Shown here in pieces: positions 3 through 46,018 of a stretch of 64,000 nucleotides of DNA. The position numbers and the translations under genes are program-made. Within the stretch, counting starts at the first letter, position 1, and every line of letters starts with the position of its first letter. The DNA lies in NCBI RefSeq assembly GCF_029873215.1, contig NZ_CP123620.1, positions 2,666,001-2,730,000 on the forward strand, read 5' to 3'. The notes beneath the pieces were generated by a model. It was not told where the DNA came from. It ran no database searches and saw nothing but the letters and a program-made list of their open reading frames with translations. The DNA is from Nocardioides sp. BP30 (GTDB taxonomy: Bacteria; Actinomycetota; Actinomycetes; Propionibacteriales; Nocardioidaceae).

Positions 3-821
3 GCTCAGGACATCGCCGACTTCGTCGCCACGTACGTCGGGGCGGTCCTGAGAGGAGTCGCCCTCCGGAGCGAGGCGATCCGGACGCATGAGGAGATCGC
101 CCTGCTGAACGCTCTGCGGGACGAGCGTCAGTTCCTCGCGACGGCGATCCACGAGCTCAGCAACTCGGTCGCCAGCATCGCCGGTTTCACCTGGGTCCTC
201 GAGCACGCGACGGGGACCCTCTCCGAGCGCCAGCACCAGCTCGTCGCCGCGGTCCGCCGCAATGCCGGCGACATGGGCGCTCTCGCCGCGGACATCCTGA
301 CGATGCTCAGCCGTGCGCCCGGCACGGCCCCGAGCGCGGGCTCGCACGAGCTGGTGGACCTGCGCACGGTGGTGAGTGCCCTCCGTGAACGGCTCCCGGT
401 CACCGCTGAGGCGGGACCGGAGCTCGTCTTCCAGCTCCCGGATCGACCGGTCGCCGTCGAGGGCGACCCCGAGCAGCTGCAGCGGATGCTCGCCAACGTG
501 CTCGGCAACGCCATCAAGTACACCCAGCCGGGAGGAACGGTCGTCTGCGCGCTGCACCGGCAGGGCGAGCACGCTCACCTCCAGGTGCGCGACAGCGGCA
601 TCGGCATCGAGGCCGCGGACGAGGCGCACGTCTTCCAGGGCTACTTCCGGGGCGCCAACGCGCGCGAGCAGGGCATCCCGGGCTCCGGTCTGGGTCTGGC
701 CATCGTGAAGGCCATCGCCGAGGAGCACGGCGGCCGGGTCTCGCTGGCGTCCAGGCTCGGCGCGGGCACGCAGGTACGGATCATCCTGCCGCTCGCCCAC
801 CCCGACGGGCCGCCGCCGTAG
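3..821 (+). CDS. sensor histidine kinase, C-terminal part (cut by window edge)
   Basis: Signal-transduction kinase. The frame is open to the left edge, so only the last 272 residues are present. The probable phosphoacceptor His is the codon at 150, in HELSNSVASI instead of the usual HELRTPL. The ATPase half is complete: N box (NVLGNAIKY, from 495), G1 (DSGIGI, from 591) and G2 (GSGLGLAIVK, from 681). No response-regulator gene follows, so the partner must be upstream of the window or elsewhere. Sensor input and transmembrane segments are not visible. The family assignment is firm; the signal is unknown. Confidence 0.9.
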   Translation, partial: AQDIADFVATYVGAVLRGVALRSEAIRTHEEIALLNALRDERQFLATAIHELSNSVASIAGFTWVLEHATGTLSERQHQLVAAVRRNAGDMGALAADILTMLSRAPGTAPSAGSHELVDLRTVVSALRERLPVTAEAGPELVFQLPDRPVAVEGDPEQLQRMLANVLGNAIKYTQPGGTVVCALHRQGEHAHLQVRDSGIGIEAADEAHVFQGYFRGANAREQGIPGSGLGLAIVKAIAEEHGGRVSLASRLGAGTQVRIILPLAHPDGPPP

Positions 822-4174: not shown

Positions 4175-7897
<3,723 letters not shown>

Positions 7898-7968
7898 GCA
7901 GTCATTCTCCCATCGCGGGTTTGCCAACCCCGAATCGTGTCCGCGACCGCGCTCCGCCAGCGGCCGAC

Positions 7969-7974
7969 TAGGGT
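7969..7974 (+). promoter_or_regulatory. -10 box of a leaderless promoter (PAC2 gene)
   Basis: TAGGGT ends 7 nt before the GTG start, placing transcription start at or next to the start codon. It lies in the 84-bp divergent gap with metH. Confidence 0.6.
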
Positions 7975-7981
7975 GAAGGGT

Positions 7982-8830
7982 GTGATCGAGCTGCAGCAGA
8001 CCCGCGACCTCGTCGACCCCGTGGTGATCGCGGCGTTCGAGGGATGGAACGACGCGGCCGACGCGGCCACGGGGGTGATCGACCACCTCATCGAGGTGTG
8101 GAACGCCCAGGTGGTGGGCGCGCTCGATCCGGAGGACTACTACGACTTCCAGGTCAACCGACCCCGTGTCGGGATCGATGAGTCCGGCCGGCGCAGCATC
8201 ACCTGGCCGACCACCCAGATCGCCGTGGCCTCGCCGCCCGACCTCAAGCGCGATGTCATCCTGATCCGCGGCATCGAGCCCTCGATGAGGTGGCGACAGT
8301 TCACCGCCGAGCTGCTGGCGGCCACCGACGAGCTCGGCGGTCGGTTCATCGTGACCCTCGGCGCGCTGCTCGCCGACACCCCGCACACCCGGCCGATCCC
8401 GGTCAACGGCACGGCCTCCGATTCCGACCTCGCCGATCGCCTCGATCTGGAGGAGCCGACCTACGAGGGTCCCAGCGGCATCGTGGGGGTGCTCCAGGAC
8501 GCCTCCACCAGCCTCGGCCTGCCCGGCGTGTCCTACTGGGCGGCGGTCCCGCACTACGTCGCGCAACCGCCGTGTCCCAAGGCGACGCTGGCCCTGGTCG
8601 GTCGGCTCGAGGAGCTGCTCGACTGCTCGATCCCGCTCGGCGACCTGCCCGAGGACGCGCGGGCATGGGAGCGCGGGGTGGACGAGCTGGCCGAGGAGGA
8701 CGAGGACATCGCCGACTACGTCCGATCGCTGGAGGAGACCCGCGACACCGCCGACCTGCCGGAGGCCTCCGGCGAGGCGATCGCGCGCGAGTTCGAGCGC
8801 TACCTCAAGCGCCGGGGGGACGACAGCTGA
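7982..8830 (+). CDS. PAC2 family protein
   Basis: Conserved actinobacterial protein of 282 residues related to proteasome-assembly chaperone 2. It starts [30 protein letters not shown], the family's N-terminal pattern, with a mid-region around [18 protein letters not shown] and an acidic C-terminal tail. Its role in bacteria is not settled; a chaperone-like role is inferred from the fold. The GTG at 7982 is chosen because a -10 hexamer sits 7 nt upstream. It is divergent from metH and convergent with mshC across a strong hairpin. Confidence 0.85.
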
Positions 8831-16030: not shown

Positions 16031-17029
16031 ATGCCTCGCCCACCGAGCCGCCCACCGACCCGCTCCCGCCGTCGCGATCGCCCGTCCGCGCCGGTCGTCG
16101 ATGTGTCGGCGTGGCACCGGATCGGCGTCATCGGCGCTGTCGGCATCGGGCTGGTCGGACTGCTGGCGTCAGCCTCGACCCACGAGCTCGACAGCGGCTC
16201 GTGGGCCTACTACGGCGCGGCCGTCGCATTGACGGTCGCGGTCTGGCTGCTGGTGCATCGTCTGCGCGCCCCGTGGGCGCTGCTGTGCTGGCCGCTGATG
16301 GCCCTGCTCGGCCTCGTCGGCGTCTCCTTCTCCGCGCCCGTCGCGGCGACCCTGTGCATGGGCTCGGCCGTCCTGGGATTCCTCTTCGCCGGCCTCACCC
16401 AGGCGCGCGGTGTCTCCCTCGTCCTGCTGCCGCCGACGCTGGCGACCTTCGTCCGGGTCAACCACTCGGTGCCGGCTCAACAGCTCGGCGTGCGCCTCGG
16501 CATCGCGCTGGTCGTCTGGATAGCTGCCGGCGAGCTGCCGGCGTGGCTGAACGCGAAGCTGAGCTCGGCCCGGGCGGACCTCGAGCGGCTGGCCGCGACG
16601 GATCCGCTCACCGGGCTGGCCAACAGGCGGTACTGGGACGCGCAGGTCGGCCGGATGCTCGGCCAGCGGACGTCCTTCGCCGTGCTGCTGGTCGACCTGG
16701 ACCACTTCAAGCTCTTCAACGACGCGCATGGCCACCTGGCCGGGGACGAGATGCTGATCGCCTTCGCCCGGGTCATCGACGAGAACGCTCCCGAGGCGGC
16801 CGTGCGCGCCCGCTGGGGCGGGGAGGAGTTCGCGCTGGCGGTGCAGGACGTCGCAGAGGCGCCGCAGATCGCCGAGCGGATCCGCCGCGCCGTACCGCTG
16901 GGACAGACCTGCTCGATCGGGCTCGTCGCCCAGCGACCCGGCGAGACGTTGCCCGGCCTCATGCTCCGTGCGGACGAGGCGCTCTACCAGGCCAAGTCGG
17001 CGGGCCGCGACCGCGTCGTCGCTGCCTGA
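16031..17029 (+). CDS. membrane-bound diguanylate cyclase (GGDEF)
   Basis: Makes cyclic di-GMP from GTP (332 aa). About six hydrophobic helices occupy residues 30-170, followed by a linker and a GGDEF domain starting DPLTGLANRRYWD. The active site reads RWGGEEF (GGEEF at 263-267), which is catalytically competent. The RxxD inhibitory site expected just before it is replaced by PEAA, so product feedback at that site is unlikely. No EAL or HD-GYP domain is present. It starts at ATG 16031; the frame extends upstream to a TTG. It is a possible source of c-di-GMP for the MshEN-type synthase at 41972, which is an inference. Confidence 0.9.
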   Translation: MPRPPSRPPTRSRRRDRPSAPVVDVSAWHRIGVIGAVGIGLVGLLASASTHELDSGSWAYYGAAVALTVAVWLLVHRLRAPWALLCWPLMALLGLVGVSFSAPVAATLCMGSAVLGFLFAGLTQARGVSLVLLPPTLATFVRVNHSVPAQQLGVRLGIALVVWIAAGELPAWLNAKLSSARADLERLAATDPLTGLANRRYWDAQVGRMLGQRTSFAVLLVDLDHFKLFNDAHGHLAGDEMLIAFARVIDENAPEAAVRARWGGEEFALAVQDVAEAPQIAERIRRAVPLGQTCSIGLVAQRPGETLPGLMLRADEALYQAKSAGRDRVVAA

Positions 17030-35292: not shown

Positions 35293-35820
35293 ATGTCGCT
35301 CGACCGTCCCGTGACCCCTGACCCCTACCCGCTGCTGCCGGCCGCCCCGGGCTTCGAGGTGACCAGCGCGGACGTCGTCGAGGGCGAGCCACTCAAGGAC
35401 GACCAGGTGGCCGAGTTCGGCAACACCTCCCCGCAGCTGTCGTGGAGCGGAGCCCCCGAGGGCACCAAGAGCTATACCGTGACCTGCTTCGACCCGGACG
35501 CGCCGACCCCGAGCGGCTTCTGGCACTGGGTGCTGGTGGACCTGCCGGCCGACGTGACAAGTCTCCCGGCCGGCATCGGCGCCGCCGACGCCGACCTGCC
35601 CGGCAACGCCTTCATGTGCCGCAACGACATGGGCGAGAAGGCGTTCGTCGGCGCCGCTCCGCCGGCCGGCGACCAGGTCCACCGCTACTTCTTCGTCGTA
35701 CACGCCGTCACCGAGGACACCCTCGGCGTCGACAGCGACGCGACCCCGGCGGTGGTCAGCTTCAACCTGGCCTTCAAGACGGCCGGGCGGGCGATCCTGC
35801 ACGGCACCTACCGGCACTGA
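35293..35820 (+). CDS. YbhB/YbcL-type PEBP (Raf-kinase-inhibitor-like) protein
   Basis: Cytosolic phosphatidylethanolamine-binding-protein homologue (175 aa) with the ligand-site motifs DPDAPTPSGFWHWVLVDLP and, later, HRYFFVVHAV. It has the usual length for the bacterial branch, whose ligand and role are mostly unknown. AGGAGG precedes ATG 35293. It stands alone between the siroheme-type gene and the glycosyltransferases. Confidence 0.92.
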   Translation: MSLDRPVTPDPYPLLPAAPGFEVTSADVVEGEPLKDDQVAEFGNTSPQLSWSGAPEGTKSYTVTCFDPDAPTPSGFWHWVLVDLPADVTSLPAGIGAADADLPGNAFMCRNDMGEKAFVGAAPPAGDQVHRYFFVVHAVTEDTLGVDSDATPAVVSFNLAFKTAGRAILHGTYRH

Positions 35821-35886
35821 GAGCGGCTGCGCCGGGGCCTGTCGCTCACCGCGCCGCCCGCTCCTGACCGATAGAGTCGCGGCACC

Positions 35887-36924
35887 ATGACCGATCTCCC
35901 CCGTCGCGTCACCTACGTGCTGCCCGTCTTCAACGAGGCGGACATCGTCGCCGTGTTCCACGACGCCCTCGTGACAGCGACCGACGAGCGGCCCGACCTG
36001 GCCTTCGAGTTCGTCTACGTCGACGACGGATCCCAGGACGGGTCGCTCGATCGGCTGCTGAGCCTGCGCGAGAAGGACGAGCGGGTGACGGTGCTCAGCC
36101 TTGCCCGCAACTTCGGCCACCAGCTCGCCGTGACCGCCGGCATCGACGCCGCGCACGCCGCCGAGGCCGATGCGGTGATCGTGATGGACACCGACCTCCA
36201 GGATCCGCCGGCGGTCAGCCTCGAGCTGCTGCAGCGCTGGGAGGCGGGCGCGGACGTCGTCTACGCCCAGCGTCGCTCCCGGCAGGACACCCGCTTCAAG
36301 CGCGGTACGGCGGCCGGGTTCTACTGGCTGCTCGACCGACTCGCCGAGACTCCCATCCCGCGCAACGTCGGCGACTTCCGCCTGATGGACCGCCGCGTGG
36401 TCGGCGAGGTGGCCAAGTACCGCGAGCACAACCGCTTCCTGCGCGGGATCGTCGCCCAGGTCGGGTTCCGCCAGGAGGCGGTGCTCTTCGATCGCGACGA
36501 GCGACTCGCCGGGCAGTCCAAGTACCCGTTGAGCAAGATGCTCCGCCTGGCCGGCGACGGGATCATGGGCTTCTCCACCCAGCCCCTGCGGCTGATCTCC
36601 CACCTCGGCCTGCTGATCTCCGGCCTCTCGCTGGTCGGCATCGTCTACGTCCTCGGCGTGCGGCTGCTCGACGCCGACGACTCGGTGCCCGGGTGGGCGT
36701 TCCTGGCCGTCGCGATGTTCTTCCTCGGAGGCGTGCAGCTCATCGTGCTGGGCGTGATCGGGAGCTACGTGGGCCGGACCTACGTCGAGGTGCTCGACCG
36801 GCCGCTGTACTCGGTGGCCCTGGCCGCCCGCGGGACCGCTGGAACATCGCAGCCGACCTCCGGGCATGACCTGAGCCGCGGTGCGCCGTTGTCACCACGC
36901 GACCCCCACCAGGAGGACCTCTAG
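35887..36924 (+). CDS. family 2 glycosyltransferase, polyprenol-phosphate type (first of a pair)
   Basis: Transfers a sugar from a nucleotide donor, probably to polyprenyl phosphate (345 aa; DPM1/GtrB/ArnC-like). It has FVYVDDGSQDGS and the metal-binding MDTDLQDPP. Two C-terminal membrane helices (about 235-255 and 265-300) match the GtrB layout. TAGAGT lies 9 nt before ATG 35887. The next gene, a paralogue, starts 1 nt after its stop. The sugar and the final glycan are unknown. Confidence 0.9.
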   Translation: MTDLPRRVTYVLPVFNEADIVAVFHDALVTATDERPDLAFEFVYVDDGSQDGSLDRLLSLREKDERVTVLSLARNFGHQLAVTAGIDAAHAAEADAVIVMDTDLQDPPAVSLELLQRWEAGADVVYAQRRSRQDTRFKRGTAAGFYWLLDRLAETPIPRNVGDFRLMDRRVVGEVAKYREHNRFLRGIVAQVGFRQEAVLFDRDERLAGQSKYPLSKMLRLAGDGIMGFSTQPLRLISHLGLLISGLSLVGIVYVLGVRLLDADDSVPGWAFLAVAMFFLGGVQLIVLGVIGSYVGRTYVEVLDRPLYSVALAARGTAGTSQPTSGHDLSRGAPLSPRDPHQEDL

Positions 36925-36925
36925 C

Positions 36926-37930
36926 ATGACCGAGCCCGGCGCTCGCCCGACCGTGTGCATCATGATCCCGGCCTACAACGAGGAGGAGTCACTACCCGTC
37001 CTGATGCCGCGGCTGACAGCGCTGGCGGACTCCCTGACCGGTTACGACTTCACGTTCTTCTTCGTCGACGACGGCAGCAGCGACAACACCCTGGAGGAGA
37101 TCGCGCGCTTCGCCGAGCACGAGCCGCGCGCTGCGTACCTGAGCCTGTCGCGCAACTTCGGCAAGGAGATCGCGATGGCGGCCGGCATCGACCACGTCGA
37201 CGCCGACGCGATGGTGATCATCGATGCCGACCTGCAGGACCCACCCGAGCTGATCGGTCAGATGCTCGAGGCCTGGCACGAGGGGTACGACGACGTCTAC
37301 GCGCGCCGCGCCGCCCGCCGGGGCGAGACCTGGTTCAAGAAGACCACGTCGCGGATCTTCTACCGGATGCTCCAGCGCACCACCCGCGTGCCGATCCAGC
37401 GTGACACCGGTGACTTCCGGTTGCTGTCCCGGCGCGCGCTGGAGGCGCTGCGGCGCTTCCGCGAGTCCGAGCGCTACACCAAGGGGATGTTCAGCCTGGT
37501 GGGCTTCCGGAAGAAGGAGATCCTCTTCGACCGGGATCCGCGGGCGGCCGGCACCACCAAGTGGCGGATCAGCAACCTCGTCGATCTCGCCATCGAGGGC
37601 GTGACCTCCTTCACCACCGCCCCGCTGCGGATCTCGACGTACGTCGGCATGGTGGTCTCGCTGTTCGCCTTCATCTACCTGCTCATCATCCTGGTACGCA
37701 CCATCTTCGGCATCTCCCACCTCAGCGGCTATCCCTCACTGATGGCGGTGATCCTCTTCCTCGGCGGCGTGCAGCTGCTGTCCCTGGGCGTGATCGGCGA
37801 GTACGTCGGCCGGACGTTCCTGGAGTCCAAGCAGCGCCCGCTCTACTTCGTCTCGCTCTTCCACGCCAGCAACGACGCCGTGAACCTCGGCGTCAGGAAC
37901 CGGCCGCAGGAGCGGCGCCAGGCGCGGTGA
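36926..37930 (+). CDS. family 2 glycosyltransferase, polyprenol-phosphate type (second of a pair)
   Basis: Paralogue of the preceding gene (334 aa), with FFVDDGSSDNT, IIDADLQDPPEL and the same pair of C-terminal helices ending in GVIGEYVGRTFLESKQRPLYF. AGGAGG precedes ATG 36926; only one base separates it from the upstream stop, so the two are translated together. The pair may charge the carrier lipid with two sugars, or act as a heteromer. A BcsB-like gene follows after 154 bp. Confidence 0.9.
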   Translation: MTEPGARPTVCIMIPAYNEEESLPVLMPRLTALADSLTGYDFTFFFVDDGSSDNTLEEIARFAEHEPRAAYLSLSRNFGKEIAMAAGIDHVDADAMVIIDADLQDPPELIGQMLEAWHEGYDDVYARRAARRGETWFKKTTSRIFYRMLQRTTRVPIQRDTGDFRLLSRRALEALRRFRESERYTKGMFSLVGFRKKEILFDRDPRAAGTTKWRISNLVDLAIEGVTSFTTAPLRISTYVGMVVSLFAFIYLLIILVRTIFGISHLSGYPSLMAVILFLGGVQLLSLGVIGEYVGRTFLESKQRPLYFVSLFHASNDAVNLGVRNRPQERRQAR

Positions 37931-38084
37931 CGGCGTTGAGGGCCCCGTCCGTGACGCCGCCGGGACATCGGTCGTTGAGGGGCCGGGGCCGCGCCAACTC
38001 GTCATCTTCGCGCGCGTCGGGGACCATGTCCCTCGGATCGCCACCCCGCACCCGCCAACCCCGCTACCTGAGTGGAGCCCCCGC

Positions 38085-40274
38085 ATGCGTCGCACCCCTG
38101 GCCCCCGCCCCGGACTCGCGCTCGCGCTGAGCCTGTCCCTGGCCGCCACCACGGGCGTCCTCGCCACCGCCGGTGCCGCCACCGCGGCGCCCGCTCCGGC
38201 CGGGGTGGTGCTGACACCGGGGACGACGTACTCGACGAGCACCAACACCCACGCCCAGTCCATCGCGATCCCGGTCCCCGACGGGCTCACGCCCCACCAG
38301 GTCACCGGCACGCTGGCCTTCGACAACGACGCCAGCGGCACCGTGCAGATCCTGGCCCACCACGAGGTCGTCGCGACGGTGAAGAAGCAGGCCTCGACGG
38401 CGTCCGCACCGGTCACGGTCCCGGTGAGCGCACGCGACGTCAGCAACGGCGCCATCTCCCTGCAGCTCCGCTACCTCGCCGGCACCCTGACCGATCCGAA
38501 GCTGTCCTGCGTCCAGTCGAACAACGGCAACGTGCAGCTGACCTCCGTCAGGGTCGACGCCAGCGGTACGGCGAAGGCGCCGACCACGCTGGCCTCCTTC
38601 TTCAGCGCGGGCGTCACCGCCGTCTCGATCGTGGTGCCGTCGGCCGGATCCGCCGACCTCCAGGCCGCGGGCCTGTCGGCCGAGGCGGCGGTGGTGCACC
38701 GCTACAGCAGCGCCGACGTCACCGTGACCACGCCGGACGACGCCGGCCGGGCGGCGGCTGTCACGCCGGCCGAGGGCCGGATCGTGAAGCTGGTCGGCGG
38801 CAGCGGTGAGGTCCGGACCAGCATCTCCGCGACCGGCGGCGTCCCGACCCTGACCCTCACCGGCGATCCGAGTCGCCTGGCCGACGCCGCGGCGGCCCTG
38901 GGCTCGGCCAACCTGGTCCTGGGCGACACCACCACCGCCAGCCGGCTCGGCCAGAGTGGCGTGCCGAGCGGCCGCACCTCCGAGACCTTCGCCGACCTCG
39001 GACAGTCGGCCCCGGCGCTGCAGGGCTTGGGCGAGTCCGACTTCGCTGTGACGGTCAAGCAGTCCGACTTCGGCGCCTCTGTCCGCCAGATGAAGGTGCA
39101 TCTGGTCGGTCGTTACGCCCAGCTGCCGAGCTCGCTCCAGGCGGTGCTCACCTACAGCTGGAACGGTCAGCTCATCGGCTCGCAGGTCCTGAGCAACGCC
39201 AACACCGCGATCGACCAGACGCTCACCGTGCCGGCCACCCAGCTCACCTTCTCCAACAGCCTGCAGGTCCAGCTCAACGCGGTGCCGAGCGGCTCGGGCG
39301 GCTCCGGCGGCTCGGCAGGTTCCAGCGGCTCGAGCGGTTCGGCCTTCGGCTGCGGCGGCCCGGTGGACTACCTGCCGATCAAGGTGACCTTCGACGGCCT
39401 GGCCTCCACCGTCACCGCTGTGCGCGGGCAGAGCACCGACCCCGGCTTCGCCCGTTTCCCGCAGACACTCGGCAACGTGCTCACCACCGCGTTCGGCGCC
39501 CAGGCGACGGCCGACGACCTGACCAACGCCGCCGGCGTCCTGCAGGCGCTGCAGCAGCTCAACTCCGACCAGCTGAGCATCAACCTGGTCAGCCCCTCCC
39601 GCCTGGTGGGGACCTCGGCGTCCGGGCTCCTCGTCGGCGCCACCGCGCAGCAGGTCGATGACCTCCAGGCGCCGCTGCGGATGGACGAGTTCCGGTCGAT
39701 CGACCAGCAGAACGTCCACTTCGGCGTGGGCGTCACCGACCCGTACGCCGCGTTCCAGGCCTTCCACCAGAACGGCCGCGACCTGCTGGTGCTCTCATCG
39801 TGGAGCCCGCAGGGCGCCGACCAGACCACCGGCCGCGCGCTCCAGTCCGCCCTCGTCGACGACCTGGTCACCGCGAAGGGCGACTGGTACGGCCTCTCCG
39901 GCGACCTGATCGTGCGGCAGAGCACCGACGGCGAGAACGTATCGCTGGACAGCAACTCGGTCGTCCCCCAGGCGGCGAAGGTGCATCACCTCGCCACCTA
40001 CGTGTGGTGGATCATCGCGTTCGTCGGGCTGCTGGTCCTGCTCCTGCTCGCGCAGTGGATCTCCGGGCGCCGGCTGCGCAAGCGTGCCCGCCAGCTCGTC
40101 GACGCGCAGGAGGAGGCGGACGCCCAGGCGAGCGCGCAGGCGGTCGCCGAGGCGCAGGCCGAGGCGGACCGCGCCGTACCGGGCCCGACCACCGACCCGG
40201 GCCACGTCAGCGATCCGCGCCACCACCACCGCGCCGCCGACCAGGACGAGCCCGGTGACGGCAGCCACCACTGA
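38085..40274 (+). CDS. BcsB-like exported protein of an exopolysaccharide synthase
   Basis: A 729-aa protein with a signal peptide (cleavage near ATAAPAPA), a large extracytoplasmic part and one C-terminal membrane helix (about 640-660), followed by a 65-residue charged tail. The layout and the DPKLSC motif of the first domain resemble BcsB, the cellulose synthase partner that guides the chain out. A Gly/Ser linker (about 403-425) separates two halves; the second opens with FGCGGPVDYLPIKV. GGAG precedes ATG 38085. The GT-C gene overlaps its end by 20 bp. BcsB similarity is by architecture and short motifs, so moderate. Confidence 0.75.
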   Translation: MRRTPGPRPGLALALSLSLAATTGVLATAGAATAAPAPAGVVLTPGTTYSTSTNTHAQSIAIPVPDGLTPHQVTGTLAFDNDASGTVQILAHHEVVATVKKQASTASAPVTVPVSARDVSNGAISLQLRYLAGTLTDPKLSCVQSNNGNVQLTSVRVDASGTAKAPTTLASFFSAGVTAVSIVVPSAGSADLQAAGLSAEAAVVHRYSSADVTVTTPDDAGRAAAVTPAEGRIVKLVGGSGEVRTSISATGGVPTLTLTGDPSRLADAAAALGSANLVLGDTTTASRLGQSGVPSGRTSETFADLGQSAPALQGLGESDFAVTVKQSDFGASVRQMKVHLVGRYAQLPSSLQAVLTYSWNGQLIGSQVLSNANTAIDQTLTVPATQLTFSNSLQVQLNAVPSGSGGSGGSAGSSGSSGSAFGCGGPVDYLPIKVTFDGLASTVTAVRGQSTDPGFARFPQTLGNVLTTAFGAQATADDLTNAAGVLQALQQLNSDQLSINLVSPSRLVGTSASGLLVGATAQQVDDLQAPLRMDEFRSIDQQNVHFGVGVTDPYAAFQAFHQNGRDLLVLSSWSPQGADQTTGRALQSALVDDLVTAKGDWYGLSGDLIVRQSTDGENVSLDSNSVVPQAAKVHHLATYVWWIIAFVGLLVLLLLAQWISGRRLRKRARQLVDAQEEADAQASAQAVAEAQAEADRAVPGPTTDPGHVSDPRHHHRAADQDEPGDGSHH

Positions 40275-41970
40275 CGCCGGCCTGATCGGCGCGCCGGCCG
40301 AGACCCCTCGCGGGCTCCTCGGCCGGCTGCTGGCGCTCTGGGCGAGCCTGGACGCACCGGTGCTCGGCCGTCGGGTGCCGGGGACGGGCGTCGTGACCCT
40401 CGCCGCCGCGCTGTTGATGACAGCGGTGTCGGTCTACACCGTCCATCAGGGCGCCGCGATGTGGTACTCCGACGCGTTGTCGCACCTGACCATCGCGCGC
40501 CGCATCTTCGACGACAAGGCGCCGGGCTTCCAGCAGCTCGGCACGGTGTGGCTGCCGGTGCCACACCTGATGCTGATCCCGTTCGTCGCCGACCTGGCGA
40601 TGTGGCGCACGGGCTGGTCGGCGGCACTGCTGGGCATCTTCTGCCTGGCCGGCACCAGCGCGGCGATGTACCGCACCGCCGCGCGGCTGGGCCTGCGCCG
40701 GACCGGCCGGCTGCTGACGTTGCTGGTGCTGTGGGCCAACGTGTCGTTCCTCTACGCACACACCACCGCCCTGACCGAGCCGGTGCTCTTCTTGACGATG
40801 TCGAGCTGCGTGGCCGGCATGACGCACTGGGCCACGGCCCGGCGGCCGCTCAGCGGCGGCGAGCTCGCCGTGTACGCCGGCGTACCCGGGGCCGGTGCGG
40901 TGCTCTCGCGCTACGAGGGCTGGGTGCTGGTGATGAGCATGTCGCTGTTCATCGTCGTGGTGGAGTGGCGCCGCAGCCGCACCCGGTTCCCGAACACCTA
41001 CCGGCTGCTGCGCTTCATCGTGCTGCGGCGGGTGCTGCCGGCCGTGCTGCCGCCGGTCATCGCGATCGGCTGGTGGCTGGCCTACAACTACGCGATCTAC
41101 CGCGATCCGCTGGAGTTCATGTTCGGGCAGTACTCCGCCTACGCGCAGCAGAAGTCGATCAGCACCTACGGCACGCTGACCACCAAGGGTCACCTCGGCG
41201 TCAGTCTGTACGTCTACGACTGGTCGATGGTGCAGACGCTGGGCATCGCGGCCATCGTGATCGGCACCCTGGGGTTCCTGCTGGTCGTCGCCACCCGCGG
41301 GCTGGACACCGTCACGCTCGTGCTGGGCGTGCTGTTCGGCACCTACGTCTTCGAGGTGGCGGCGCTCTACCTCGGCATGTCGGTGATGAACAACTCGCAC
41401 TCGCTGCCCAAGGGCCTGTTCAACGTCAGGTACGGCATCCAGCCGATCCTCTTCTGCGCCCTGGGGACGGGCTTCGCCGTGGAGCTGCTGCGGCGCTGGA
41501 CGCGGCGATTCCTGCCCGCCCTGGTGATCCCCTACGTCGCGGTCTTCGCGCTGGCGGCGCAGGCGGGCTGGTGGCTGGAGGACCCGGTCGCCCACAACTC
41601 GCTGATCGGCGAGGGCGCCTACAACAACGACACCCGGCCCGATGCCGCGGCGGAGTACCTGCGCGAGCACTACCGCGGCGGCGGCATCCTGATGGACGAG
41701 TCCGGCGCCAGCAACGGCATCATCCCGCTGGTCGGCGTGCGGATCAGCGAGTACTGGAACCGCTCGACGGGCGACTCCTTCGCCACCGCCCTCGCCTCCC
41801 CCGCCAGTCACGCGCGCTGGCTGTTCGTCAACACCTCCAGCACCGGCGGCATGAACCTCGACGGCATGGACGCCGTCTACGCCGACATGATCGAGCACCC
41901 CGAGCTGTTCACCGCCTACTCCCGCGTCTTCGTGCAGGGCGAGCACGCTGTCTACGAGAGGGCGTGGTGA
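40255..41970 (+). CDS. GT-C type membrane glycosyltransferase (GT39/ArnT-like)
   Basis: Polytopic membrane protein (571 aa, roughly ten to twelve helices). The first extracytoplasmic loop (YSDALSHLTIARRIFD, then GFQQLGTVWLPVPHLM) carries the acidic residues expected of GT-C enzymes that use polyprenyl-phosphate sugars. It starts at GTG 40255, inside the BcsB-like gene, with AGGACGAG upstream; its stop is followed after 1 nt by the GT2 start. Such an enzyme could decorate the polymer with lipid-linked sugars from the GT2 pair at 35887-37930, which is an inference. Confidence 0.82.
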   Translation: MTAATTDAGLIGAPAETPRGLLGRLLALWASLDAPVLGRRVPGTGVVTLAAALLMTAVSVYTVHQGAAMWYSDALSHLTIARRIFDDKAPGFQQLGTVWLPVPHLMLIPFVADLAMWRTGWSAALLGIFCLAGTSAAMYRTAARLGLRRTGRLLTLLVLWANVSFLYAHTTALTEPVLFLTMSSCVAGMTHWATARRPLSGGELAVYAGVPGAGAVLSRYEGWVLVMSMSLFIVVVEWRRSRTRFPNTYRLLRFIVLRRVLPAVLPPVIAIGWWLAYNYAIYRDPLEFMFGQYSAYAQQKSISTYGTLTTKGHLGVSLYVYDWSMVQTLGIAAIVIGTLGFLLVVATRGLDTVTLVLGVLFGTYVFEVAALYLGMSVMNNSHSLPKGLFNVRYGIQPILFCALGTGFAVELLRRWTRRFLPALVIPYVAVFALAAQAGWWLEDPVAHNSLIGEGAYNNDTRPDAAAEYLREHYRGGGILMDESGASNGIIPLVGVRISEYWNRSTGDSFATALASPASHARWLFVNTSSTGGMNLDGMDAVYADMIEHPELFTAYSRVFVQGEHAVYERAW

Positions 41971-41971
41971 G

Positions 41972-43987
41972 ATGACCGCCGACCTGACCGGTCGCCGTCG
42001 CCGCGAGGACGCCGGCGCTCCCCTCGACCTCGAGCAGCAGGCCGAGCTCGACGTCGCCCTGGTGCTGGTCCGTGACGGCATCATCTCCCAGGCGCAGCTC
42101 GACGGCGCACTGGCAGCCCAGCAGCGGCTGGGGGGTGCGCTGAGCCGCCACCTGATGATCGATGCGCTGGTGCCGCGGCGCACGATCTACCGGCACCTCG
42201 CCGAGGAGTGGCAGGCGCCGTACCTCGACATGCTCGCGGAGCCGCCGGACCCGCGCGCCGTGGAGATGGTCAACCGGCACCTCGACGGCGTGCGCTGGTT
42301 CGCCCGGCACCACTGGCTGCCCTGGCGGGTGCTGCGCCGCGACGGCGAGGAGGTGCTGGTGTTCGCCACCTCCGTGGCACCCAGTGAGCGACTGCTCGCC
42401 GAGGTGCGCACGACCACCGGCCACCAGCACGTCGAGGCCCGGACGACCACCGACTTCGACATCTTCCGCACCTGCCAGGACATCGGCCGCGCCCGGCTGC
42501 TGTACCGGATCACCGACTACATGGCCGACAACATGCCCGACGCCTCCGCGCGCGGCAGCGTGGTGACCTGGCAGAAGGTGGTGCCGCTCATCCTGCTGGC
42601 GGCGCTGGTCGCCGGGGCCGCCCTCGCGCCGCACTGGGCGATCCTGGCCGTCTTCTGCGTGGCCAACCTGCTCTTCGTCAACAACGTCGCGTTCAAGGTG
42701 CTCTACGGGCTGCGCTCGCCGCTGCGGCGCCGCCAGGTCGCGCGCCTCGACGGCGCCATCGGACGGGAGCGCTCCACCCGCGGCTACGAGCCCGACTGGC
42801 CCGGCCGGATGCGGGACGAGGACCTGCCGATGTACACCGTCCTGGTCCCCGTCTACGACGAGGTCGAGGTGGTGCAGAAGGTCATCGGCAACATGGAGCG
42901 GATGGACTACCCCAAGTCCAAGCTCGACGTGATGATCCTGCTCGAGGAGAAGGACCACAAGACGATCGAGGCCGCCAAGGCCTCCCGCCCGCCGGAGTAC
43001 GTGCGCATCGTCGTCGTACCGGAGGGGCATCCGCAGACCAAGCCGCGGGCGTGCAACTACGGCCTGGAGTTCGCGCTCGGCGAGTACGTCGTCATCTTCG
43101 ACGCCGAGGACCGGCCCAACCCCGACCAGCTGCGCAAGGCGGTGGCGGCGTTCCGGCTCAACCGGCTCCTGCGCGAGCACGTGGATCCGTACGAGCCCAA
43201 GCTGGTGTGCGTCCAGGGTGCGCTGGCGTACTTCAACTACGACTACAACCTGCTCACCCGGCTGTTCTCGATCGAGTATGCGCACTGGTTCGACATGATG
43301 CTGCCGGGCATGGACCAGGCCGGGCTGCCGCTGCCGCTGGGCGGCACCAGCAACCACTTCGAGACCGAGGTGCTGCGCAACCTCGGCGCCTGGGACCCCT
43401 ACAACGTCACCGAGGACGCCGACCTCGGCCTGCGGATCGCGAGCCAGGGCTACAAGATCGGCATCATCGACTCGGCGACCGAGGAGGAGGCGACCTCGGA
43501 GTCGTTCGCCTGGATCCGGCAGCGGACCCGGTGGATCAAGGGCTACATGATCACCGCCGCCGTCAACACCAGGCACCCCGTCCGCTGGTGGCGGCTCAAC
43601 GGTGTCGGCGGCGCCGTCAGCATGGGCGGGCTGGTGCTGGGCACGCCCCTGGCGTTCCTCGCCTACCCGCTGGCGCTGCTGTTCACCGTGGTCACCTACA
43701 TCGGCGTCCGCACCGGCCTGGACTTCCCGCACCCGATCCTGAGCGCCGGCATCCTGATGATGGTGATCGGCAACGGGGCGATGATCCTGTTCGCGGGCAT
43801 CGCAGCCTGGCGACGCTACAGCTGGCGGATCGCGCTCTACGCCGTCTTCAACCCGATCTACTGGCTGATGCACTCGGTGGCCGCCTGGCGGGCCGCGTAC
43901 CAGCTGATCTTCGACCCGTTCACCTGGGAGAAGACGCCCCACGGGCTGACCGGGGACTACGACTCGACGACCGGCGAGCACCACTAG
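41972..43987 (+). CDS. processive GT2 polysaccharide synthase with N-terminal MshEN-like domain
   Basis: Membrane synthase of 671 aa. Residues 20-95 resemble the MshEN/GSPII_E_N fold (VRDGIISQAQLDGALAAQQR, then a second repeat ending APYLDM), which binds c-di-GMP in some proteins. Two helices (about 205-250) lead to a GT2 domain with DAEDRPNP (377-), TSNHF, EDADL (481-485) and QRTRW (517-521), the processive signature. Four or so more helices follow. DAED and MshEN recall NfrB of E. coli, but there MshEN is C-terminal and here N-terminal. The RLG element is kept only in the second repeat, so c-di-GMP binding is uncertain. Confidence 0.85.
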   Translation: MTADLTGRRRREDAGAPLDLEQQAELDVALVLVRDGIISQAQLDGALAAQQRLGGALSRHLMIDALVPRRTIYRHLAEEWQAPYLDMLAEPPDPRAVEMVNRHLDGVRWFARHHWLPWRVLRRDGEEVLVFATSVAPSERLLAEVRTTTGHQHVEARTTTDFDIFRTCQDIGRARLLYRITDYMADNMPDASARGSVVTWQKVVPLILLAALVAGAALAPHWAILAVFCVANLLFVNNVAFKVLYGLRSPLRRRQVARLDGAIGRERSTRGYEPDWPGRMRDEDLPMYTVLVPVYDEVEVVQKVIGNMERMDYPKSKLDVMILLEEKDHKTIEAAKASRPPEYVRIVVVPEGHPQTKPRACNYGLEFALGEYVVIFDAEDRPNPDQLRKAVAAFRLNRLLREHVDPYEPKLVCVQGALAYFNYDYNLLTRLFSIEYAHWFDMMLPGMDQAGLPLPLGGTSNHFETEVLRNLGAWDPYNVTEDADLGLRIASQGYKIGIIDSATEEEATSESFAWIRQRTRWIKGYMITAAVNTRHPVRWWRLNGVGGAVSMGGLVLGTPLAFLAYPLALLFTVVTYIGVRTGLDFPHPILSAGILMMVIGNGAMILFAGIAAWRRYSWRIALYAVFNPIYWLMHSVAAWRAAYQLIFDPFTWEKTPHGLTGDYDSTTGEHH

Positions 43988-44028
43988 TCGAGTCGGGCCT
44001 CCGTCCGGCTCGAGTCGGGCCTCCGTCC
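43988..44028. repeat. dispersed 22-nt repeat, copy B (two units)
   Basis: The units start at 43988 and 44010 and share TCGAGTCGGGCCTCCGTCC. They begin directly after the synthase stop codon. The same unit and spacing occur at 23517. The rest of the gap, to 44198, holds nothing recognisable. Confidence 0.7.
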
Positions 44029-44198
44029 CCGGTGTCCGTACGTGGGACGCGGGCGCCGTGGAGGTGCTTCTCGCACGACGGCCTCGCCCCGGCATCGGCC
44101 ACCTCGGCACGATCGACGCGGAGCGTCCGAGGAGGAGCCGGGCCCGAGCCTCACCCGTGGTCGGCGCCGTGCGGTCGGCGTCCGCGTCGAGCGGGCCG

Positions 44199-44864
44199 TC
44201 AGTACTCCGGCGGCCCGTCGCTGGCCCGCTTGAGCAGGTCGGCGAAGTCGGTCGGGTGCTCGAACTCGTCCTCGACCAGGCGGCGGGTCGGGGCCGCCGA
44301 AGCGGTGCCGACGGGTCCGGCGACCAGCGCCGCGAATTCGCCGGCCGCCCGCTCGACCCGCTTGTGCAGCTCCCCCTCCGCACCGGCGCCCGTGGCGGCG
44401 AAGTCCTCGGTGGCGGCGAAGACGCCGGTCGGCACGACGATCGCGTGCAGGTAGGCGAACAACGGGCGCAGCGCGTGCTCGATGACCAGGCTGTGCCGAG
44501 CGGTGCCGGCCGTCGCACCGAGCAGCACCGGCTTGGCGTCGAGCACCCCCAGCTCCAAGACGTCGAAGAACGTCTTGAACAGCCCGGAGTACGACGCGGA
44601 GAAGACTGGCGTCACGGCGATCAGGCCGTCCGCCTGCCGTACGGCGTCGATCGCCGCTGCCAGCTCCTGCGAGGGGAAGCCGGTGAGCAGGTTGTCGGTG
44701 AGCGCGTGGGCGAGGCCGCGCAGCTCGACGTGCTGCACCTCGACCTCCACGCCGCGCGCCTCGACCGCCCGCTCGCTGGCCTCGGCCAGCATGTCGGCGA
44801 GGAGCCGGGTGCTCGACGGGACGCTGAGCCCCGCCGAGACCACGACGATCCTCTTGCTACTCAC
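44199..44864 (-). CDS. NAD(P)H-dependent FMN reductase (CE1759 type)
   Basis: Flavodoxin-fold flavin reductase (221 aa) with VVVSAGLSVPSSTRLLADML at the FMN phosphate loop and TPVFSASYSGLFKTFFDVL. It supplies reduced FMN to the flavin-dependent oxidoreductase upstream; the CE1758/CE1759 family pair is usually encoded together. The GTG start overlaps the upstream stop (GTGA), so translation is coupled. The substrate of the pair is unknown. Confidence 0.87.
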   Translation of the reverse strand: MSSKRIVVVSAGLSVPSSTRLLADMLAEASERAVEARGVEVEVQHVELRGLAHALTDNLLTGFPSQELAAAIDAVRQADGLIAVTPVFSASYSGLFKTFFDVLELGVLDAKPVLLGATAGTARHSLVIEHALRPLFAYLHAIVVPTGVFAATEDFAATGAGAEGELHKRVERAAGEFAALVAGPVGTASAAPTRRLVEDEFEHPTDFADLLKRASDGPPEY

Positions 44865-46018
44865 AGCTCCCCCGCCAGGACCTCGTCGCGGTCACTGGTG
44901 CCGGTGGCGTCGTCGGCGCCGTAGACGGCGTCGTCCTTCGGGCCGCCCGCCTTCGCGACCAGCGAGGCGTGCGTCGGCGCGTCCGGAACGCCCGGCGCGC
45001 GCAGCTTCTCGAACTCCGAGCGCAGCGTCGGCAGGATCTCGCCGTACAGGTCGAGCTGCTCCAGGACCGTCTTCAGCGGCAGGCCGGCGTGGTCGATGAG
45101 GAACAGCTGGCGCTGGTAGTCGCCGACGTACTCCCGGAAGGAGAGCGTGCGTTCGATCACCTGCTGCGGCGAGCCGACGGTCAGCGGGGTGGCCTCGGTG
45201 AAGTCCTCCAACGACGGGCCGTGGCCGTAGACCGGGGCGTTGTCGAAGTAGGGCCTGAACTCGTTGACCGCGTCCTGGCTGTTGTGGCGCATGAAGAACT
45301 GCCCGCCGAGGCCGACGATGGCCTGCTCGGCCGTGCCGTGGCCGTAGTGCTCGAAGCGCTGCCGGTACAGCCGCACCATCTGCTCGGTGTGGGAAGCGGG
45401 CCAGAAGATGTGGTTGTGGAAGAAGCCGTCGCCGTAGTACGCCGCCTGCTCGGCGATCTCGGGGCTCCGGATGGAGCCGTGCCACACGAACGGCGCCACG
45501 CCGTCCAGCGGACGCGGGGTCGAGGTGTAGCCCTGCAGCGGGGTGCGGAAGCGGCCCTTCCAGTCCACGTTCGTCTCGGTCCACAGCTGGCGCAGCAGCG
45601 CGTAGTTCTCGATCGCCAGGTTGATCCCCTGGCGGATGTCCTTGCCGAACCACGGGTAGACCGGGCCGGTGTTGCCGCGGCCCATCATCAGGTCGACGCG
45701 GCCGTCGGTGAGGTGCTGCAGCTTGGCGTAGTCCTCGGCGATCAGCACCGGGTCGGTGGTGGTGATCAGCGTGGTCGAGGTGCTCAGGATGATGTTCTCG
45801 GTCTGGGCACCGATGTAGGCGAGCGTCGCCGTCGGGTTCGAGGCGATGAACGGCGGGTTGTGGTGCTCGCCGGTCGCGAAGACGTCCAGGCCGATCTCCT
45901 CGGCCTTCTTGGCGATCGCGACGGTCGCCTTGATCCGCTCGTACTCGGTCGGCGTGCTGCCGTTCGTGGGGTCCGTGGTGACGTCACCGACGGTGAAGAT
46001 GCCGAACTGCATGCCCAT
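44861..46018 (-). CDS. LLM-class flavin-dependent oxidoreductase (CE1758 type)
   Basis: Luciferase-like TIM-barrel monooxygenase (385 aa) using FMNH2 from the adjacent reductase. It opens MQFGIFTVGDVT and has the EHHNPP and MMGRGNTGPVYPWFGKD flavin/substrate segments. The last 30 residues are acidic and probably disordered. ATG 46018 has GGAG 6 nt upstream. An AT-rich imperfect palindrome lies just upstream, unlike the GC-rich surroundings, and probably controls the pair. The oxidised compound is unknown. Confidence 0.9.
   Translation of the reverse strand: MGMQFGIFTVGDVTTDPTNGSTPTEYERIKATVAIAKKAEEIGLDVFATGEHHNPPFIASNPTATLAYIGAQTENIILSTSTTLITTTDPVLIAEDYAKLQHLTDGRVDLMMGRGNTGPVYPWFGKDIRQGINLAIENYALLRQLWTETNVDWKGRFRTPLQGYTSTPRPLDGVAPFVWHGSIRSPEIAEQAAYYGDGFFHNHIFWPASHTEQMVRLYRQRFEHYGHGTAEQAIVGLGGQFFMRHNSQDAVNEFRPYFDNAPVYGHGPSLEDFTEATPLTVGSPQQVIERTLSFREYVGDYQRQLFLIDHAGLPLKTVLEQLDLYGEILPTLRSEFEKLRAPGVPDAPTHASLVAKAGGPKDDAVYGADDATGTSDRDEVLAGEL

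Follow-up and report, generated by a model that had tools for sequence, protein, structure and literature searches.

The closest described relatives of the three-gene set examined here, which lies in a 64,000-nucleotide stretch of the Nocardioides sp. BP30 genome (contig NZ_CP123620.1, positions 2,666,001 to 2,730,000; hereafter the window), include polysaccharide synthases controlled by cyclic diguanosine monophosphate (c-di-GMP). Escherichia coli NfrB, of the NfrBA-YbcH system, is a c-di-GMP-activated membrane polysaccharide synthase of glycosyltransferase family 2 (GT2) that combines DxD-, TED- and QxxRW-type signatures with an MshEN domain in one protein (PMC8669469, PMC8669472), and the Achromobacter nfr cluster includes a BcsB homologue together with NfrAB (PMC8669472). 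In the Gram-positive Listeria monocytogenes, the pssA-E genes direct synthesis of a c-di-GMP-dependent exopolysaccharide, the GT2 PssC adjoining the BcsB orthologue PssD (PMC4125290). By profile, the MshEN domain considered below belongs to the same family as those of Thermus PilF (GSPII) and the N-terminal domain of Vibrio cholerae MshE (PMC11731258, PMC12002112, PMC5013675), and fusion of MshEN to glycosyltransferases has already been noted (PMC5013675). For O antigens it is established that GT-C enzymes add sugars outside the cytoplasm, after polymerisation, using a lipid-linked donor; here a polyprenyl-phosphoribose synthase, a MATE flippase and a GT-C enzyme of family GT136 act as donor synthase, flippase and transferase (PMC11127046).

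The window encodes, on its forward strand, a BcsB-like protein (38085-40274), a GT-C type glycosyltransferase with a GTG start (40255-41970) and a predicted processive GT2 synthase of 671 residues with an N-terminal MshEN domain (41972-43987). The best explanation of this set, to which we give a probability of roughly two in three, is a c-di-GMP-linked exopolysaccharide synthase, belonging to Actinomycetes and some relatives, that draws on lipid-linked sugars to decorate its polymer as well.

Gene organization and conservation

The stop codon of the BcsB-like gene, ending at 40274, lies within the GT-C gene, whose start at 40255 creates a 20-bp overlap, and a gap of 1 nt separates the GT-C and GT2 genes. 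The coordinates, overlap and gap were given in an original prediction made by a model from the sequence alone, and all are borne out by the open reading frames. Against the nearest named relative found, Nocardioides sp. Iso805N (locus L016), whose GT2 is 92% identical to that of the window, the ratio of nonsynonymous to synonymous substitution (dN/dS) is 0.205 for the BcsB-like gene, 0.123 for the GT-C gene, 0.142 for the GT2 gene and 0.120 for the stretch encoding the MshEN_N subdomain alone. All three are real genes under purifying selection.

The original prediction had staked itself on conservation of the three-gene order in relatives, and the order BcsB–GT-C–GT2 on one strand was indeed found in 14 of the 20 loci in the named genome collection (L016-L027, L029 and L033), BcsB being cut by the contig end in two of them (L025 and L026). 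Their sources are Nocardioides (three), Arthrobacter/Paenarthrobacter (six), Glutamicibacter, Tersicoccus, two metagenome-assembled genomes (MAGs) of Acidimicrobia and one MAG labelled Acidobacteria, and two further genera are added by L083 and L084. In four loci (L030, L031, L032 and L034) neither BcsB nor GT-C accompanies the GT2, and in two (L028 and L035) the contig starts within the GT2 gene. The GT2 of the MAG labelled Acidobacteria (L025:2384-4366, forward strand) is almost identical on the tree described below to that of the Acidimicrobiaceae MAG L027, and the bin label may be wrong.

Class-wide, a GT2 match at E ≤ 1e-60 was found in 32 of 394 genomes, the window's own included. Among the 29 fetched loci of the 33 class-wide matches outside that genome, 23 have the GT2 accompanied, at most 1.5 kb away and on the same strand, by a GT-C or GT-C-like gene; the 29 reversed loci gave no match, nor did the remainder of the window. 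The six loci with no GT-C neighbour are L049, L060, L066, L071, L073 and L074; BcsB adjoins the GT2 in L073 and L074, and a longer stretch of the L073 genome (L079) shows a weak GT-C-like match (1.4e-7) beyond BcsB. Because of these neighbour counts, the GT2–GT-C pair looks like the most constant part of the system, with MshEN and BcsB varying around it. In a quick tree search without bootstrap, covering 55 of 58 rows (the near-duplicates L018, L024 and L029 were left out, and several rows are long-branched), twelve window-type synthases form a clade with a Shimodaira–Hasegawa-like approximate likelihood ratio support of 99. The presence of MshEN changes at least four times on this tree, with L022 counted as MshEN-bearing through its C-subdomain and L082 through a weak match (0.001), and GT-C is under-counted, having been scored with one profile. 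Adding the Acidimicrobia-type loci gives a wider group of 16 rows, with a support of only 80, that includes L071, which shows neither partner.

The MshEN domain and c-di-GMP

The MshEN domain spans about residues 20-171 of the synthase, N-terminal to the GT2 catalytic domain (residues 286-524; 42827-43543; PF13641), and consists of an MshEN_N subdomain with two degraded 24-residue motifs (residues 27-79; 42050-42208; NF053729 and the motif table) and an MshEN_C subdomain (residues 81-171; 42212-42484). The PF05157 match (2.1e-5, 24.9 bits) is over its cut-off of 23.1, and the NF053729 match (4.7e-7, 29.5 bits) is under its cut-off of 38. A phmmer search reached Thermus PilF at 1e-5, and a profile built from 13 N-terminal regions matched the solved structures of Thermus PilF at 8.7e-40, PilB at 3e-14 and V. 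cholerae MshE at 6.3e-13; the NCBIfam c-di-GMP motif model matches 12 of the 13 regions and the NfrB model 8 (E ≤ 0.01). The 24+5+24 motif of the window scores 13 of 22, and 300 shuffles of the same region gave a maximum of 13 and a mean of 8.2. Chance likeness was nevertheless rejected: the 53-residue motif alone falls within the shuffle range, but the family-profile matches are decisive, and because the assignment depends on them and not on the motif alone, the N-terminus is, by profile homology, securely identified as a true MshEN domain.

The structure model places helices in MshEN_N at residues 20-34, 40-53, 57-64 and 69-79, and three strands with helices in MshEN_C, with block values of the predicted local distance difference test of 79-93 over residues 21-100 and 72-92 over residues 101-170. 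The four-helix N-subdomain and three-stranded C-subdomain of the family are therefore both present, as judged from the secondary structure of the model only. The original prediction had proposed comparing a structure prediction with MshEN, and the modelled secondary structure does not refute it. Its placement of MshEN at residues 1-100 holds as regards homology and model and falls short in extent, as the domain reaches about residue 171; the two MshEN-like repeats that it saw in residues 27-79 are real by profiles and not significant by the motif alone.

The residues expected to contact the ligand tell a different story from the fold. The window copy departs from the two-motif consensus (R/K/L)LG...G...L...L..Q of c-di-GMP-binding MshEN domains, its contact positions reading DVA-LLQ and ALS-ILE instead of RLG-LLQ twice (RLG to DVA, RLG to ALS, G to A and Q to E). 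In NfrB, changes at the motif glycines G491 and G519 are the most damaging (PMC8669472, PMC8669469); judging from the neighbouring leucines, these would be the glycines of the two RLG triplets, in which case both are changed in the window. The motif of L016 scores 12 of 22 with contact residues identical to those of the window, and other members of the window's type score 8-17, the Arthrobacter-type reaching 15-16 and the Acidimicrobia-type 9-13; L017 has 15 (SIG-LLA/LLG-ILQ) and L023 the best score, 17 (PLG-ILQ/LLG-MLQ). Since the contact residues are mostly changed, binding of c-di-GMP by the window copy is doubtful. The domain is kept under selection in the window, and c-di-GMP control here may be weak, altered or lost.

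An MshEN domain in every GT2 of this kind was considered and rejected, 26 of the 58 scanned GT2 frames being without a match to the N-terminal profile (E ≤ 0.01), a profile built from the window's own type that may miss distant MshEN domains; L030, for instance, has a sub-threshold Pfam MshEN match. In L022 the three-gene order persists although the synthase gene (6980-8740, forward strand) is without MshEN_N, and a GtrA gene overlaps it.

Genes for c-di-GMP metabolism accompany the window-type synthases of several relatives. GGDEF or GGDEF-EAL genes were found in the flanks of 8 of 18 window-type loci (L017-L019, L024, L029, L021, L033 and L027), the 18 including the window, scored as absent, and also L085, whose contig stops short of any BcsB, versus none of 21 other GT2 loci. 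The count is a lower bound, obtained with two L017 protein queries at E ≤ 1e-5 over flanks that measure about 6-7 kb but less in some loci, and amounts to about four independent cases because five of the eight loci are close Arthrobacter-type relatives. Of six neighbours inspected, five have kept their GGEEF/GGDEF signatures intact, and EAL too where one is expected; by our own pattern the GGDEF gene of L027 is without the motif. The synthase gene of L017 is followed, 104 bp on, by the start of a GGDEF gene and then by a GGDEF-EAL gene. Between these two, a 167-residue protein without Pfam match is encoded (L017:10200-10703, forward strand), overlapping each by 4 bp. The nearest GGDEF domain in the window lies at 16547-17026 on the forward strand, about 21 kb upstream of the synthase set, and the genome as a whole has this one MshEN match, 17 GGDEF matches and 2 PilZ matches. 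Of the regulatory layout originally predicted, MshEN first and no PilZ match in a Gram-positive GT2 is upheld; control of the window protein by c-di-GMP has less support, its contacts being largely changed and no GGDEF or EAL gene adjoining it.

These observations make for an even contest on one component of the best explanation, and leave the rest of it compatible with either outcome: in the window lineage the MshEN domain may no longer sense c-di-GMP and act instead as a structural or protein-docking module, the synthase being constitutive or otherwise controlled. The four changes at the contact positions, shared by L016 while its MshEN_N stretch evolves at the low dN/dS given above, and the lack of a local GGDEF or EAL gene in the window are consistent with such a loss, as is Thermus PilF GSPII-A, which keeps the fold without binding c-di-GMP (PMC12002112). 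On the other side, the genome has 17 GGDEF matches and this MshEN match alone, and deviations from the motif are tolerated elsewhere, the consensus having been widened to R, K or L at its first position (PMC11731258).

The GT-C enzyme and its predicted donors

Taken alone, the window GT-C enzyme matches PMT at E 0.007 (16.4 bits versus a cut-off of 22.7). Homologues match PMT_2 at 2.1e-7 and, in L083, at 7.8e-8 (33.1 bits, over the cut-off of 26.1); among 15 members, PMT matches three and PMT_2 two (E ≤ 0.1), and D73, E175 and E221 are invariant in all 15 sequences. Searches of the PDB returned nothing at E ≤ 1 with the alignment profile and none with the single sequence.

The GtrABC system is a three-component extracytoplasmic glycosylation system, and counterparts of GtrB, and in two relatives of GtrA, are found near the gene set. 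Immediately upstream in the window, on the same strand, lie two GT2 genes of GtrB/PgfS/ArnC type, predicted to encode polyprenyl-phosphate sugar synthases (35887-36924, PF00535 5.1e-23; 36881-37930, PF00535 2.4e-32), which overlap each other by 44 bp, the second ending 154 bp before the BcsB-like start and having a dN/dS of 0.144 against L016. The first matches NF047588 PgfS at 8.2e-70 and PRK10714 ArnC at 1.5e-39, and the second at 3.2e-83 and 3.4e-56, all under the equivalog cut-offs. Hydropathy indicates transmembrane helices at residues 240-258 and 273-291 of the first and 254-272 and 284-302 of the second, two C-terminal hydrophobic helices being the layout of GtrB-type polyprenyl-phosphate sugar synthases. 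GtrB-type genes also precede the set in L016 and L022, where a GtrA flippase gene stands beside it as well (before BcsB in L016, overlapping the GT2 end in L022), so that GtrB, GtrA and GT-C are all adjacent to the synthase in these two loci, and two GtrB genes and GT-C in the window.

Some relatives carry gene fusions. In a locus of the same genus with a divergent GT2 (L043:5224-8655, forward strand), a single open reading frame of 1143 residues, overlapping the synthase gene by 4 bp, joins a GtrB-type GT2 (residues 24-183), a GT-C domain homologous to that of the window (260-769; 5e-91) and a cellulase domain of glycoside hydrolase family 5 (GH5; 833-1071), possibly an all-in-one decorating and trimming enzyme. 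A GtrB–GT-C fusion of 766 residues adjoins a related GT2 in another family of the class (L078:7401-9701). Because of these fusions, the arrangement suggests that GT-C uses a polyprenyl-linked sugar made by GtrB, and the proposal that the upstream GT2 genes supply the GT-C enzyme gains strength from them. The GH5 domain hints at a beta-linked main chain. In a second Nocardioides type, all seven loci examined (L036-L041 and L086) have an MshEN-GT2 gene followed by a GT-C-like gene and preceded by a GH5 cellulase gene, and our BcsB profile detected no BcsB in them.

The acceptor of the GT-C enzyme could instead be the BcsB-like protein, another envelope protein or a lipid or cell-wall component, and the Pfam relatives of the enzyme, weak as they are, are of protein mannosyltransferase type (PMT and PMT_2). 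We consider this unlikely: GT-C adjoins the GT2 in five loci (L041, L042, L077, L078 and L080) in which about 13 kb searched with our BcsB profile yielded no BcsB, and its fusion to GtrB and a GH5 glycanase domain in L043 points to a polysaccharide.

The synthase, the BcsB-like protein and the flanks

The GT2 carries DAED at residues 377-380, TSNHF at 459-463, TEDAD at 480-484 and QRTRW at 517-521, all four invariant in an alignment of 13 sequences, and the motifs named in the original prediction (DAEDRPNP, TSNHF, EDADL and QRTRW) are all present. The DxD-like, TED and Q(Q/R)xRW signatures with flanking transmembrane helices are those of a processive membrane GT2 synthase, and processivity is predicted on these grounds. 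A fold search (VIA-align) with the structure model, whose list spans residues 219-668 only and so says nothing on the MshEN part, finds the GT2 similar to BcsA and hyaluronan synthase through the transmembrane region. That the GT2 is merely a diverged ordinary cellulose or poly-N-acetylglucosamine (PNAG) synthase, as its BcsA-like fold and its two top-scoring NCBIfam models, CelA (TIGR03030) and PgaC/IcaA (TIGR03937), might suggest, is improbable and was rejected, since its 53.2 and 50.4 bits are far under the equivalog cut-offs of 699.1 and 422.3, no PilZ domain is found in it at E ≤ 0.1 in Pfam, a GT-C partner is present, and it carries DAED in place of the DxD form of BcsA.

The window BcsB-like protein has hydropathy segments at residues 11-29, 169-187 and 636-654, with a hydrophobic, signal-like N-terminus and a C-terminal transmembrane helix. 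Alone it matches PF03170 at E 0.0025 (16.7 bits versus a gathering score of 21); across the aligned family the model matches 13 of 14 members, the window protein included (E ≤ 0.1, best 1.5e-7), and individual relatives reach 30.6 bits in L017, over the gathering score, and 19.1 in L076, with no match in L075. A PDB search with the BcsB alignment profile gave nothing at E ≤ 1, and one with the single sequence gave eight chance-level matches (E 0.1 or worse).

The window lies on a single contig of 4.28 Mb. A scan of positions 35600-44400 for promoters and terminators found none, versus shuffle means of 0.4 and 1.5. The genes downstream of the set point the opposite way and encode a CE1759-type FMN reductase and a CE1758-type luciferase-like monooxygenase (44199-46018, reverse strand), both over their NCBIfam cut-offs; homologues adjoin the gene set in L016 too.

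Proposed mechanism

In the machine that we propose, the GT2 would draw on a cytoplasmic nucleotide sugar to polymerise a sugar chain and pass this chain through its own membrane channel, and the BcsB-like protein would receive and guide the chain outside the membrane. As the chain emerges, the GT-C enzyme would attach side sugars to it; these would come from a polyprenyl-phosphate donor that the upstream GtrB-type enzymes synthesise and a GtrA-type protein flips, the gene of the latter being adjacent in two relatives and elsewhere in the window's genome. The N-terminal MshEN domain would serve as the regulatory input, set in relatives probably by the products of the neighbouring diguanylate cyclase and phosphodiesterase genes.

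Several observations weigh against this explanation. The window motif keeps three of six and two of six ligand positions, the synthase of L022 is without MshEN_N altogether (motif score 8), and no GGDEF or EAL gene is adjacent in the window. The assignments of the window BcsB-like and GT-C proteins themselves are weak, both scoring under Pfam cut-offs, and the best fold match of the GT2 is an archaeal mannosyltransferase, with no known processive synthase in that place. No GtrA gene was found within the window, the genome's two GtrA matches lying elsewhere, and the Arthrobacter-type loci showed no GtrB or GtrA genes beside them. The gene set is also patchy, a window-type GT2 (52%) occurring in only one (G009) of 24 other genomes of the genus. 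Finally, 13 of the 23 GT-C neighbours are best matched by the GT-C-like gene of the second Nocardioides type; this gene matches nothing in Pfam, and a profile match of 3e-9 (L041) is what ties it to the window GT-C.

More tentatively, and at somewhat less than even odds, the loci may represent an undescribed and widespread class in which a processive GT2 and a dedicated GT-C enzyme couple polymerisation and extracytoplasmic side-chain addition in one machine, with MshEN, BcsB and local diguanylate cyclase and phosphodiesterase genes gained or lost by lineage, and with the MshEN domain of the window kept under selection after losing its canonical c-di-GMP contacts.

Comparison with known systems

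The original prediction knew of no described system with this set. The open-access literature searched yielded no description of BcsB, GT-C and an MshEN-first GT2 together, and nothing on MshEN glycosyltransferases in Actinobacteria or on c-di-GMP-linked exopolysaccharide glycosyltransferases in Nocardioides. The claim stands for the full set and has to give way for one part of it, since the Gram-positive Listeria is already known to combine BcsB and a c-di-GMP-dependent GT2 (PMC4125290).

Exopolysaccharide machines of Actinomycetes, and the action of c-di-GMP on them, appear little described in the literature searched, and the gene set offers a case in which the coupling of polymerisation to side-chain addition can be tested directly. 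Its MshEN domains, which grade naturally from near the consensus to degraded, are in turn material for learning the role of the domain when its ligand may not bind.

Each of the known systems differs from the gene set of the window in at least one feature. BcsA carries a PilZ domain and the window GT2, in which none was found, does not reach the CelA equivalog score; to our knowledge, BcsAB has no GT-C partner. In three-component glycosylation the GT-C enzyme accompanies O-antigen assembly genes, whereas here it adjoins a synthase-type GT2, and GtrA and GtrB are not always adjacent. The PilF and MshE domains belong to pilus ATPases, whereas the domain here heads a glycosyltransferase. In Listeria the receptor is PssE, a separate protein with a degenerate GGDEF domain in place of an MshEN domain within the synthase, and GT-C is not mentioned in the available parts of that report (PMC4125290). 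The MshEN domain of NfrB is C-terminal, in contrast with the N-terminal position here (residues 20-171, ahead of the GT2 domain at 286-524), and NfrB is a Gram-negative protein whose partners are NfrA and YbcH, with no mention of GT-C in the parts of the reports available (PMC8669469, PMC8669472). We therefore place the system among synthase-dependent exopolysaccharide systems, outside the cellulose, PNAG and NfrB families because it departs from the features by which each of these was tested.

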